In this document: positions 34,137 to 38,639 of the stretch, piece after piece
Layout of the letters: every line of letters starts with the position of its first letter
Numbering within the stretch: position 1 is the first letter of the stretch
NCBI RefSeq assembly: GCF_029964055.1
Contig: NZ_CP124836.1
Coordinates: 2,294,001-2,358,000 of the forward strand
DNA: 64,000 nucleotides
Origin: Arthrobacter sp. EM1
GTDB lineage: Bacteria; Actinomycetota; Actinomycetes; Actinomycetales; Micrococcaceae
Direction: 5' to 3'
The notes under the pieces: generated by a model
Database searches by the model: none
What the model saw: only the letters and a program-made list of their open reading frames with translations
Told to the model about the DNA's origin: nothing
Program-made: the position numbers and the translations under genes

Positions 34137-34309
34137 GGTTCCAGCCTACCGGGGCGGTGGTGTGACGGGAATTTGGCGACTGTAGGACCGGCCCGGATCG
34201 CGGGATGAACCACTACGCTGAAATATACGTTGTCATGGGGTAACGGCGGCGGGCGCCGATCAATGCACGCAGCCGTCCGTCACCACCGCCTCCAATCGTC
34301 GCTACAGAA

Positions 34310-34759
34310 ATGAGCCGCCGTATGACCACCTCGTTCCGGAAAAGCGTCTTCGTTGGCATCGCCGGACTCTCCCTGGTGGGCTCCGCGGCGGGCTGCGCAC
34401 CCGGACAGGCCGCCGGAACCGCCGCGACCGGGACCGCACCGTCCGCCGCGGCAGGCACCGCCGCCTACAGGGACGGCACGTACAGCGCCGACGGCAGCTA
34501 TGTCTCGCCCAACGGCACCGAGACCGTCGGCGTGACACTGACACTGGCCGCCGGTGCAGTATCCGATGTCCAGATCACCCCCCACCCATCCAACCCCAAC
34601 ACCAAGAAGTTCCAGGGCGAATTCGCCAGTGGCATCAAGGCCCAGATTTCCGGCAAAAGGCTCGACGAGATCAAGGTCAGCAAAGTGGCGGGCTCCTCGC
34701 TGACCAGCGGCGGCTTCAACCAGGCTGTCGAGAAGATCAAGGCCGAGGCCGCGTCATGA
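34310..34759 (+). CDS. Small FMN-binding-domain lipoprotein (RnfG/NqrC-like)
   Basis: A 149-residue exported protein: signal peptide (residues ~10-28), a weak lipobox ending at Cys29, an Ala/Thr-rich linker, and an FMN_bind domain from ~50. The end of the domain reads V-A-G-S-S-L-T-S-G-G-F, which aligns with the S/T-G-A-T/S flavinylation motif of RnfG and NqrC, with Ser130 in the acceptor place. The next gene encodes an ApbE flavin transferase, so covalent FMN attachment is likely. ATG 34310 is used; ATG 34322 is equally possible. No strong ribosome-binding site is seen. Confidence 0.9.
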   Translation: MSRRMTTSFRKSVFVGIAGLSLVGSAAGCAPGQAAGTAATGTAPSAAAGTAAYRDGTYSADGSYVSPNGTETVGVTLTLAAGAVSDVQITPHPSNPNTKKFQGEFASGIKAQISGKRLDEIKVSKVAGSSLTSGGFNQAVEKIKAEAAS

Positions 34760-34795
34760 CCAGCAAGTCATAGCCAGCAGCCGGCAGGAGGAAAC

Positions 34796-35668
34796 GTGGC
34801 GCATCCGGGCTGGACCGGTTTCCGTTTCGAAGGAATCGGTACCCGTTGGGAGATCTCAACACCCGCACCGCTTCCGGACGCGCTCCGCCGCCGGCTGCTC
34901 GCCACCCTCTCGGACTACGACAGCGCCTGGTCCCGGTTCCGGCCGGACTCCCTGATCTCTGCCGCGGCGAGGCGGCCGGGCCGCTACGTCCTGCCGGCCG
35001 AGGCAGCCACCCTGGGGCCGCTCTATCAGACGCTGTATACGCTCACCGGCGGTGCCATGACACCGCTCATCGGCGCCAGCCTCGAACAGCTCGGCTATAA
35101 CGCCGGGTACTCCCTGCGCCCGGTCGGGGTGCCCTTGCCTGCCCCGGTTTGGGACGAGGTGCTGAACTGGCAGGGAAGGGTGTTGACCATCAGCGCCCCG
35201 GTGGTGATCGACGTCGGGGCCGCCGGCAAAGGCCAGCTGGCGGACCTGATGTCCGCAGTACTTCGCGACGCCGGGATCGAGGAACATTTCATCGATGCCG
35301 GCGGTGATTTGCTCAATGCCGGCGCCCTGGGTGTGGATGTGGGCCTTGAGCATCCTTATGATCCTGACCGGGCCATCGGCATCGTGCGTCTGGGATCCGG
35401 CGCACTTTGCGGGTCCGCTGCAAACCGGCGGGCCTGGGGCGACGGACTGCACCACGTGCTGGACGGAACCACCGGGGTGCCGGTGCGCACCGTCGTTGCC
35501 AGCTGGGCCATGGCTGCGACGGCCATGGTCGCCGATGCACTGGCAACTGCGCTGTTTTTCGTCGAGGGATCCCGTTTGCAGGAGACATTCGACGTCGCCT
35601 GGCTGACGGTCCACTCGGACGGCCACGCCGAGTACTCAGCCGATTTTGAAGGGGTGCTGTTCCCATGA
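34796..35668 (+). CDS. apbE: FAD:protein FMN transferase (ApbE family)
   Basis: A 290-residue enzyme that moves FMN from FAD onto Ser/Thr of extracytoplasmic redox proteins. The FAD/Mg motifs are DVGAAGKGQLAD (139-150), AGGDLL (168-173), HHVLDGTTG (219-227) and the C-terminal ADALATALF (246-254). No signal peptide or lipobox is visible, which is unusual for an enzyme acting outside the cell, though some ApbE proteins are cytoplasmic. AGGAGG lies 5 bases before GTG 34796. Its stop overlaps the start of the membrane reductase gene (ATGA). Confidence 0.93.
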   Translation: MAHPGWTGFRFEGIGTRWEISTPAPLPDALRRRLLATLSDYDSAWSRFRPDSLISAAARRPGRYVLPAEAATLGPLYQTLYTLTGGAMTPLIGASLEQLGYNAGYSLRPVGVPLPAPVWDEVLNWQGRVLTISAPVVIDVGAAGKGQLADLMSAVLRDAGIEEHFIDAGGDLLNAGALGVDVGLEHPYDPDRAIGIVRLGSGALCGSAANRRAWGDGLHHVLDGTTGVPVRTVVASWAMAATAMVADALATALFFVEGSRLQETFDVAWLTVHSDGHAEYSADFEGVLFP

Positions 35669-37200
35669 CCACCACAATCCCGACACCTCTCAGCTCACGG
35701 CTGGACGCAGCCCTGGGCCGGTTTACGATGTACCGGCTGGTCCTGTGGGTCCTGGCCGTGCTGGCCGGCTACAGCCTGTTGCTCGATGTGCTCGGCTGGC
35801 TGACGTTCGGGCTCCCGGAGATGACCGCCCACCTGGTCCTCTGCCTGGGCTTGAGCTATGCCTCCAACCGGGGCCTCGCAGCAGTGTTCCATGTGCGGCC
35901 GCACTCCGAGTCGGCGCTGATTACCGGGCTGCTGCTGTACTTCCTGTTCTGGCCGACGCAGTTCTCGGCCGGGCTGCAGTACCTGGATCTGGCCGGTGTC
36001 GCCCTCGCCTGCGTGCTGGCCTCGGTATCTAAATACGCGCTGGCCTGGCGCGGCCGCCACCTTTTCAACCCGGCGGCGGCGGGGGCGTTCCTCACCGGGC
36101 TGACCGGACTCAACATCGCCACCTGGTGGGCCGCCACCCCGGCAATGCTCTGGCTGGTGCTGCCCGGGGTCCTGCTGGTGCTCTACCGGGTCCGGAAGCT
36201 GCTGATGGCGTCCGTGTTCACGCTGGTTGCAGTGTCAGTTGTAGCCGTGGAACTGCTGCGCACCGGGATGCTGCCGGGCGAGGCGCTGTGGCAGACCCTG
36301 GCACAGCGCCCGGTGCTGTTCTTCGTCGGTTTTATGCTCACCGAGCCGCTCACCCTGCCGCCGCGGCGGTGGCAGCAGCTGGCGCTGGCCGCCGTCGTCG
36401 GGCTGCTGTTCGCCGTCCCGTACAACCTGGGCTTCGTGGCCAATTCCCCCGAACTGGCGCTGCTGGCAGGGAACGCCCTCGCTTTTGCCGCCGGCCAGCG
36501 CGGCCGTGTGCTGCTCCGCTTCCGGGGCTCGCGTCCGTTGACCCCGACGACGACGGAATTCAGCTTCCAGCCGGAGCGCCCGCTCCGCTTCACCCCGGGA
36601 CAGTACATCGAACTGAACCTGCCGCATTCGAAGGCCGACCACAAAGGCCGGCGGCGGGTCTTCAGCCTGACCAATCCGCCGGACTCGACCTCGCTGACGA
36701 TCGGGGTCGGGACGGGCGGTCAGCTCTCCACGGCAAAACAGTCGCTCCTGGCCCTGGAACCCGGCCAAGAACTGACGGCCACCAGCATCGGCGGCGACTT
36801 TGTGCTGCCGCGGGCGGCCGGAGCGCCGGTGCTGCTGATCGCGGCCGGTATCGGCATCACCCCGTATCTGGCCCAGCTGACCGGGGCTTCCGCCGGTGCG
36901 CGGGACGTGGTCCTGCTGTACCTCGCCGTGAGTGCCGCCGAACTCGCCTACGCCGATGAGCTCGAACGCACCGGCGTCCGGGTTATCGCCCGCCTGGCCG
37001 ACGGGTCCGCCCCGCCGGCGTTTATGCAGGACGCGGGCGCCGTCCGGATCGATGGTGCCTCGCTGAAAGATCTTGTTCCCGACGTCGCGGACCGGGATGT
37101 CTACGTGTCGGGCTCGCCGGCGAGTGTCCGCTCACTCAGCGCCGCTGCCCGCCGGTCCGGGGCTCGGAGGATCCACGTGGACTCCTTCTCCGGCTACTGA
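35665..37200 (+). CDS. RnfD/NqrB-like membrane protein fused to a ferredoxin-NAD(P)+ reductase domain
   Basis: A 511-residue fusion. Residues ~20-275 hold about eight to ten membrane helices with RnfD/NqrB traits: RHLFNPAAAGAF and A-A-T-P (156-159), where Thr158 is in the place of the Thr that carries FMN in RnfD. Residues ~285-500 are a ferredoxin-reductase module with FAD motif RRVFSLTN (330-337), a Gly-rich loop GVGTGGQLS, the NAD(P) motif AAGIGITPYL (393-402) and VSGSP near the end. It should pass electrons from NAD(P)H in the cytosol across the membrane to flavins outside. Overlaps apbE by 4 nt. Confidence 0.88.
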   Translation: MTTTIPTPLSSRLDAALGRFTMYRLVLWVLAVLAGYSLLLDVLGWLTFGLPEMTAHLVLCLGLSYASNRGLAAVFHVRPHSESALITGLLLYFLFWPTQFSAGLQYLDLAGVALACVLASVSKYALAWRGRHLFNPAAAGAFLTGLTGLNIATWWAATPAMLWLVLPGVLLVLYRVRKLLMASVFTLVAVSVVAVELLRTGMLPGEALWQTLAQRPVLFFVGFMLTEPLTLPPRRWQQLALAAVVGLLFAVPYNLGFVANSPELALLAGNALAFAAGQRGRVLLRFRGSRPLTPTTTEFSFQPERPLRFTPGQYIELNLPHSKADHKGRRRVFSLTNPPDSTSLTIGVGTGGQLSTAKQSLLALEPGQELTATSIGGDFVLPRAAGAPVLLIAAGIGITPYLAQLTGASAGARDVVLLYLAVSAAELAYADELERTGVRVIARLADGSAPPAFMQDAGAVRIDGASLKDLVPDVADRDVYVSGSPASVRSLSAAARRSGARRIHVDSFSGY

Positions 37201-37393: not shown

Positions 37394-37580
37394 TGCATCT
37401 CGACGCAACGGGCAGGCGGACGGGGCATTCAAGGCGCGCCACCCTGCCATTTGTCGGTGCCCGCTCGTAGGCTGGGTGCATCGGCAGCGGGGTCTCGGCC
37501 TGGTGGCTGGAGGCGGTGGCCTGCCCGGGTGCGGCCACCGCACCACTACCGGATCCCGCCGAAGCGCAAAGGGGTCTCAC

Positions 37581-38639
37581 ATGTACTGCACCATCATTCC
37601 TCCGTATTTGCTCCGCCGCCTGGCAGCCCAGCACGGACCCGAACACTCCGCGGTAGCGCGTGCAGCCAAGGAAGCCCTGCTGCACGTCCCGGGGTTTCAG
37701 GCTTCCCGTGCCACACCCGGGCCAGGCAGCCATCCCGCCCTGCGCGAACTTAGGCCGTCCCCACCGGAACGGACAGTCTATGACGCCAAATCAGCCGAGC
37801 AACTCCCCGGCAGCATGGTCCGCAAGGAGGGTGAGCCACCCGTCAACGACCCCGCAGCCAACGAGGCCTACGACGGTCTGGGCCACACCCACCGGCTCTA
37901 CGCCGAGGCCTTCGGCCGGAACTCCATCGACGGCAATGGACTTCACCTTGATGCCACGGTTCACTATGGCCGCCTGTACGACAACGCCTTCTGGGACGGC
38001 CGGCAGATGGTCTTCGGCGACGGCGACGGCGAGGTTTTCGAGCGGTTCACAAAGTCCCTGAGTGTGATCGGCCACGAACTCGCCCATGGCGTCACGCAGT
38101 ACTCGGCCGGCTTGGTTTACCGCAACCAGGCAGGCGCACTGAACGAATCAATGTCAGATGTCTTCGGCGCCCTGGTTGAGCAGTTTCTCGGGAAGCAGAC
38201 GACGGCGGAGGCCAGCTGGCTGATCGGCGAGGGCCTCTTTACGGACAAGGTCCAGGGGGCCGCCCTGCGTTCCCTCAAAGACCCCGGCACTGCGTATGAC
38301 GACGACGTTCTCGGCAAGGACCCGCAGCCGGGCTCGATGGAAGGCTATGTGCGCACCAGTGCCGACAACGGCGGCGTGCACATCAACTCCGGCATCCCCA
38401 ACCGGGCGTTCTACCTCGTGGCGGCGGCGCTGGGCGGCAACGCCTGGGAGGCGCCGGGACGGATCTGGTACGAAACGCTGACGGGCGGCACCCTGGCTCC
38501 GGATGCCACCTTCGGCGCATTCGCCAAGGCCACTGCGGCCTCGGCCGGGGAGCTTTTCGGAGCCGAATCCAAAGAGCATGACGCCGTGCTCTCCGCGTGG
38601 GAAACTGTGAAGGTAAAGTTCACTGGCGTCCGGCGGTAG
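37581..38639 (+). CDS. Protealysin-like M4 family metalloprotease (intracellular thermolysin relative)
   Basis: A 352-residue thermolysin-family zinc protease. The zinc site is H165-E-L-A-H169 with Glu189 (ALNESMSDVFG) as third ligand, and the catalytic His is in GGVHINSGIPNRAFY. There is no signal peptide or long propeptide. Instead a short N-terminus carries I-P-P-Y-L-L (residues 6-11), the PPYxL-type motif of protealysin-like precursors, which cut off their short propeptide themselves. ATG 37581 has AAGGGG upstream and opens at this motif. The next gene is an emfourin-like inhibitor, the usual partner of this protease type. Confidence 0.93.
   Translation: MYCTIIPPYLLRRLAAQHGPEHSAVARAAKEALLHVPGFQASRATPGPGSHPALRELRPSPPERTVYDAKSAEQLPGSMVRKEGEPPVNDPAANEAYDGLGHTHRLYAEAFGRNSIDGNGLHLDATVHYGRLYDNAFWDGRQMVFGDGDGEVFERFTKSLSVIGHELAHGVTQYSAGLVYRNQAGALNESMSDVFGALVEQFLGKQTTAEASWLIGEGLFTDKVQGAALRSLKDPGTAYDDDVLGKDPQPGSMEGYVRTSADNGGVHINSGIPNRAFYLVAAALGGNAWEAPGRIWYETLTGGTLAPDATFGAFAKATAASAGELFGAESKEHDAVLSAWETVKVKFTGVRR

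Follow-up and report, generated by a model that had tools for sequence, protein, structure and literature searches.

The window, a stretch of 64 000 nucleotides from Arthrobacter sp. EM1, contains three head-to-tail open reading frames on the forward strand, at the positions originally predicted. These encode an FMN-binding lipoprotein (34322–34759, with the stop codon at 34757–34759), the FAD:protein FMN transferase ApbE (34796–35668, starting with GTG and showing no sign of a signal peptide) and, as judged from fold matches, an RnfD/NqrB-like membrane domain fused to an FNR-type reductase (35665–37200). The predicted overlap of the last two genes was also observed, as a shared ATGA. For the lipoprotein gene, the original prediction was right as to its presence but not as to its start at 34310. 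We preferred the ATG at 34322, because in one orthologue (L008) a stop codon lies between both candidate ATGs and because conservation begins there. Ser130 (in A-G-S-S of the lipoprotein) and Thr158 (in A-A-T-P of the fusion protein) are correctly numbered from the starts used in the original prediction, and Ser130 becomes residue 126 when counted from 34322; we retain the original numbers below.

The upstream intergenic region between argS and the lipoprotein gene contains a block, TGAACC(A/G)(C/T)TAC(G/C)CTGA (34206–34222, no strand assigned), that was kept in the 14 close loci aligned. It is possible that this block is a promoter or an operator of either gene. An Rfam scan gave no match besides the downstream tRNA. 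Beyond the operon and its tRNA gene lies a gene for a thermolysin-type M4 metallopeptidase (37476–38639), which is probably unrelated to the operon.

A search for relatives gave 80 loci, nearly all labelled Arthrobacter, Pseudarthrobacter or Paenarthrobacter. All three genes were present in 79 of them, the other (L040) being a cut contig, and the same order was found in all 79 complete loci, which argues against a chance arrangement. Among the genomes searched, the membrane domain was present in 88 of 101 from the genus, in 36 of 149 from the family (spread over 8 of 32 genera) and in 11 of 296 from a phylum sample, in which several weak matches were other RnfD relatives. At the family level, the three genes stayed together in 19 of the 20 loci fetched. 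Locus L109 is the exception: next to its fusion gene we detected no lipoprotein gene and no ApbE gene, and the upstream space reads as something else. Because argS is a neighbor common to many family loci, the distribution suggests that the cassette is old and has been inherited vertically, with losses. One further locus (L099, G093:C59), from a genome placed by the search in the same phylum, carries a divergent fusion gene and an adjoining ApbE gene, and no FMN lipoprotein was detected beside the fusion; the contig may be a contaminant that stems from a different phylum.

Fold of the fusion protein and residue 158

A PDB sequence search with the membrane-domain profile found no chain and one with the lipoprotein profile found no credible chain, so that a comparison of folds was needed. 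The AF2 model of the fusion protein (mean pLDDT 80.8) separated into an RnfD/NqrB-like domain at residues ~1–280 and an FNR-type FAD/NAD(P)-binding domain at ~280–511. Residues 11–279 matched RnfD of Azotobacter (8ahx_D) with Z 22.0 and rmsd 3.6 over 242 aligned residues, and residues 280–511 matched the reductase domain of a flavohaemoglobin (4eh1_B) with Z 25.0; the FAD domains of NqrF aligned with the C-terminal domain at Z of about 22.8. The predicted fusion of the two domains in one polypeptide is thus borne out by the two Z values. Profile comparison agreed for the membrane domain (hhalign against RnfD, E 1.8e-09). Pfam PF03116 was matched by 6 of 19 fusion orthologues (best 3e-07) and not by the fusion protein of the window, whose PF00175 score was 18.6 bits against a cut-off of 22. 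The FNR-type residues R331, S334, G397 and P400 and the C-terminal Tyr were invariant or nearly so, and Pfam reported no haem or Fe-S domain.

The original prediction also held that Thr158 of the membrane domain binds a second FMN covalently, which would give a relay of two covalent flavins as in Nqr and Rnf. In the Arthrobacter group this residue is indeed invariant (81 of 81 fusion proteins), and its context A-A-T-P-A resembles A-T-P-L of RnfD. When we aligned the domain with 31 RnfD sequences using hhalign, Thr158 could be set opposite Thr187 of RnfD; however, this alignment needed a split gap to bring A-T-P opposite A-T-P-L, and the placement is ambiguous. An alignment with E. coli RsxD alone needed one gap and put this stretch at the start of the next helix, which lies well downstream of Thr187, and by our reading an ungapped count back from G168 and R175 would pair residue 158 with the Glu of the RnfD motif G-E-T/V-S. 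Among 24 diverse members, including that of the window, residue 158 was Thr in 11, Asn in 6, Ala in 4 and Ser in 3. Moreover, the ApbE consensus is absent, since in W-W-A-A-T-P the position –3 is occupied by Trp rather than by Ser or Thr. The NQR/RNF-like family is reported to have lost the flavin threonine of NqrB/RnfD, and it was proposed that the membrane subunit has a non-covalent flavin site, which the covalently bound flavin of the extracytosolic subunit visits (Huang 2024, PMC11334425). Given the variability within the family, the missing Ser/Thr at –3, the placement in the RsxD alignment and this published loss, we reject, with high confidence, an obligate flavin site at Thr158, and regard a second covalent FMN at this residue as very unlikely.

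The lipoprotein, ApbE and the place of flavinylation

The lipoprotein of the window has the lipobox G-S-A-A-G-C, and a lipobox was found in 95 of 99 lipoproteins of these clusters. A twin-arginine (Tat) route was considered and is not general, as RR occurred near the start in only 9 of 95 signal regions. The window's own protein scored 19.1 bits against Pfam FMN_bind, below the cut-off of 22, and all 25 of the orthologues scanned matched this family when E values up to 1 were accepted (best E 2.2e-05). The AF2 model was of moderate confidence (mean pLDDT 60.4). Its top structural match was an FMN-binding domain (8p2a, Z 8.6); because IscU-like and other unrelated folds scored barely lower, the fold by itself gives weak support, and a comparison of the lipoprotein profile with E. 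coli RsxG using hhalign gave nothing useful. The assignment as a putative FMN-binding protein is carried by the Pfam matches of the 25 orthologues.

Ser130 lies in the motif V-A-G-S-S-L-T-S, of which G-S-S-L-T-S was invariant in 80 of 80 lipoproteins of the Arthrobacter group. The motif was also nearly invariant in the diverse lipoproteins, with a few variants (A-S-S-S-L-T-S, G-S-S-L-S-S and G-S-S-L-T-A). The tetrapeptide A-G-S-S is close to the [S/T]GA[S/T]-like motif of ApbE targets, although it is not canonical. In agreement with the original prediction, the near universality of this motif points to Ser130 (Ser126 in the revised numbering) as the likely site at which FMN would be covalently bound.

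As to the transferase that would attach this FMN, ApbE of the window matched its Pfam family with 111.7 bits (E 6e-32), and its PDB matches were FAD:protein FMN transferases (E 8e-11). We then scanned the ApbE homologues of the clusters for signal peptides by simple hydropathy rather than with a trained predictor, and found none in 102 sequences; the highest N-terminal segment reached 1.66, compared with a cut-off of >1.8 for the mean of 14 residues. For 47 of the 102 homologues, the open frame extends for 12 residues or fewer ahead of the ApbE domain, too short a stretch to hold a signal peptide. By eye, the two further ApbE genes that the genome carries showed no signal sequence either. From sequence, ApbE therefore seems to be cytosolic while its lipoprotein substrate is exported, a mismatch that counts against the module as we read it below.

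Cytosolic ApbE enzymes are known, and in the bacterial example that we found the target is soluble and cytosolic. We tentatively suggest, at rather less than an even chance, that the actinobacterial ApbE flavinylates the lipoprotein precursor in the cytosol and that the FMN-bearing precursor is then exported, mostly without a twin-arginine signal. Such flavinylation before export would differ from the characterized extracytosolic systems, whose ApbE is itself a secreted protein. The signal-less ApbE of these clusters is a point beyond the published accounts (Meheust 2021; Huang 2024), and the cassette raises a question that can be checked, namely where flavinylation happens.

Class of the system and the proposed route of electrons

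The conserved gene order, the domain folds and the adjoining apbE support the original reading of the locus as a flavinylation-dependent transmembrane electron-transfer operon. A system of this kind is already known: the cassette is an instance of the published 'NQR/RNF-like' systems, for which this architecture and this electron flow have already been proposed (Meheust 2021, PMC8238504; Huang 2024, PMC11334425). It shares with them an N-terminal NqrB/RnfD-like membrane domain joined to a C-terminal NAD-binding domain, an extracytosolic FMN-binding subunit, apbE, the lack of further Nqr/Rnf subunits and, probably, the lack of a conserved flavin threonine in the membrane. The cassette of the Arthrobacter group is a well-conserved addition to this class, and a literature search for such a system in Arthrobacter returned only a general review of ApbE. 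In contrast to the published systems, the Arthrobacter sp. EM1 proteins fall below the cut-offs for FMN_bind and PF00175 and do not match PF03116.

This difference bears on the published census. NQR/RNF-like systems were defined as flavinylation clusters that include a protein with PF03116 and PF00175, and 127 clusters were reported, mostly from Actinobacteria and the candidate phyla radiation (Meheust 2021, PMC8238504). At E 1e-5, PF00175 was matched by none of 45 fusion orthologues and PF03116 by 3 of 45; this threshold differs from the gathering cut-off, and the fusion protein of the window fails both Pfam cut-offs. Judged from the criteria stated in the survey, the count of 127 probably misses the Arthrobacter lineage. 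Because 88 of the 101 genomes sampled from a single genus carry the membrane domain and the Pfam scores lie below the cut-offs, 127 is probably a large undercount. Profile cut-offs seem to hide many such systems in this soil lineage, which is easily grown and offers a near-universal, tractable copy of a predicted electron-export module.

Compared with Na+-NQR and RNF, the cassette shares the RnfD/NqrB membrane fold, an extracytosolic protein of the FMN_bind type and an NqrF-like reductase domain. However, those complexes have six subunits, whereas here there is one fused polypeptide with a lipoprotein; moreover, the cassette has no return path and no PF02508 subunits, and the candidate covalent flavin site in the membrane is not conserved. 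Nqr/Rnf subunits with PF03116 or with PF02508 (the latter NqrD/E and RnfA/E) were not detected elsewhere in the genome, and we took this absence as evidence against a full Nqr or Rnf pump.

Beyond the observed gene order, domain folds, conservation and variability of residue 158 in the family, we infer the direction of flow, the cofactors, flavinylation and the transmembrane carrier. We consider it quite probable that this module moves electrons from NAD(P)H through FAD, a membrane flavin and the FMN of the lipoprotein to an extracellular acceptor. Electrons of NAD(P)H would enter at the FAD of the cytosolic FNR-type domain and pass to the RnfD-like membrane domain, probably with a non-covalent flavin. 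From there they would reach the FMN that ApbE is predicted to set on Ser130 of the lipoprotein, at the external side of the membrane, before leaving for the acceptor.

As to the acceptor, our guess is a small diffusible oxidant such as Fe(III), because a dedicated reductase gene is not linked to the cassette. If the acceptor were Fe(III) reduced outside the cell for uptake, the module would serve ferric-iron assimilation. A VIT1 iron transporter occurs in 6 of the 127 published NQR/RNF-like clusters (PMC8238504), and in one diverse locus (L117) an upstream open reading frame resembles, by eye, a DtxR/MntR-type regulator; however, the recognizable neighbors, both in the window and across most of the family loci, are housekeeping genes (argS, a helicase-like gene and a tRNA gene), among which no iron gene was recognized, and we hold this role to be possible but on balance doubtful. 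We give a similar, minority weight to the alternative that the lipoprotein passes electrons not to iron but to a quinone, to a redox enzyme of the cell wall or to thiol/methionine-sulfoxide repair. A stand-alone cassette without a terminal reductase gene would fit such a diffusible or shared acceptor, but the linked genes favor none of the three.

The genome contains a second flavinylation cluster, of the MsrQ-like type (L158, 2226–5144; G000:C1, near 3333700–3336650), which encodes a ferric-reductase-like membrane protein with an NAD-binding domain, an FMN_bind protein with the canonical S-G-A-T and ApbE. In both clusters, the membrane component and an NAD-binding reductase are fused, and an FMN_bind protein and ApbE accompany them; the MsrQ-like cluster differs in its ferric-reductase-type membrane domain (PF01794), in place of the RnfD-like domain found here, and in its S-G-A-T motif. 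The third ApbE gene (L159, 1860–4613; G000:C1, near 3184850–3187620) shares its strand with a NuoF-like gene (Complex1_51K, NADH_4Fe-4S) and lies near a histidine kinase-like open reading frame.
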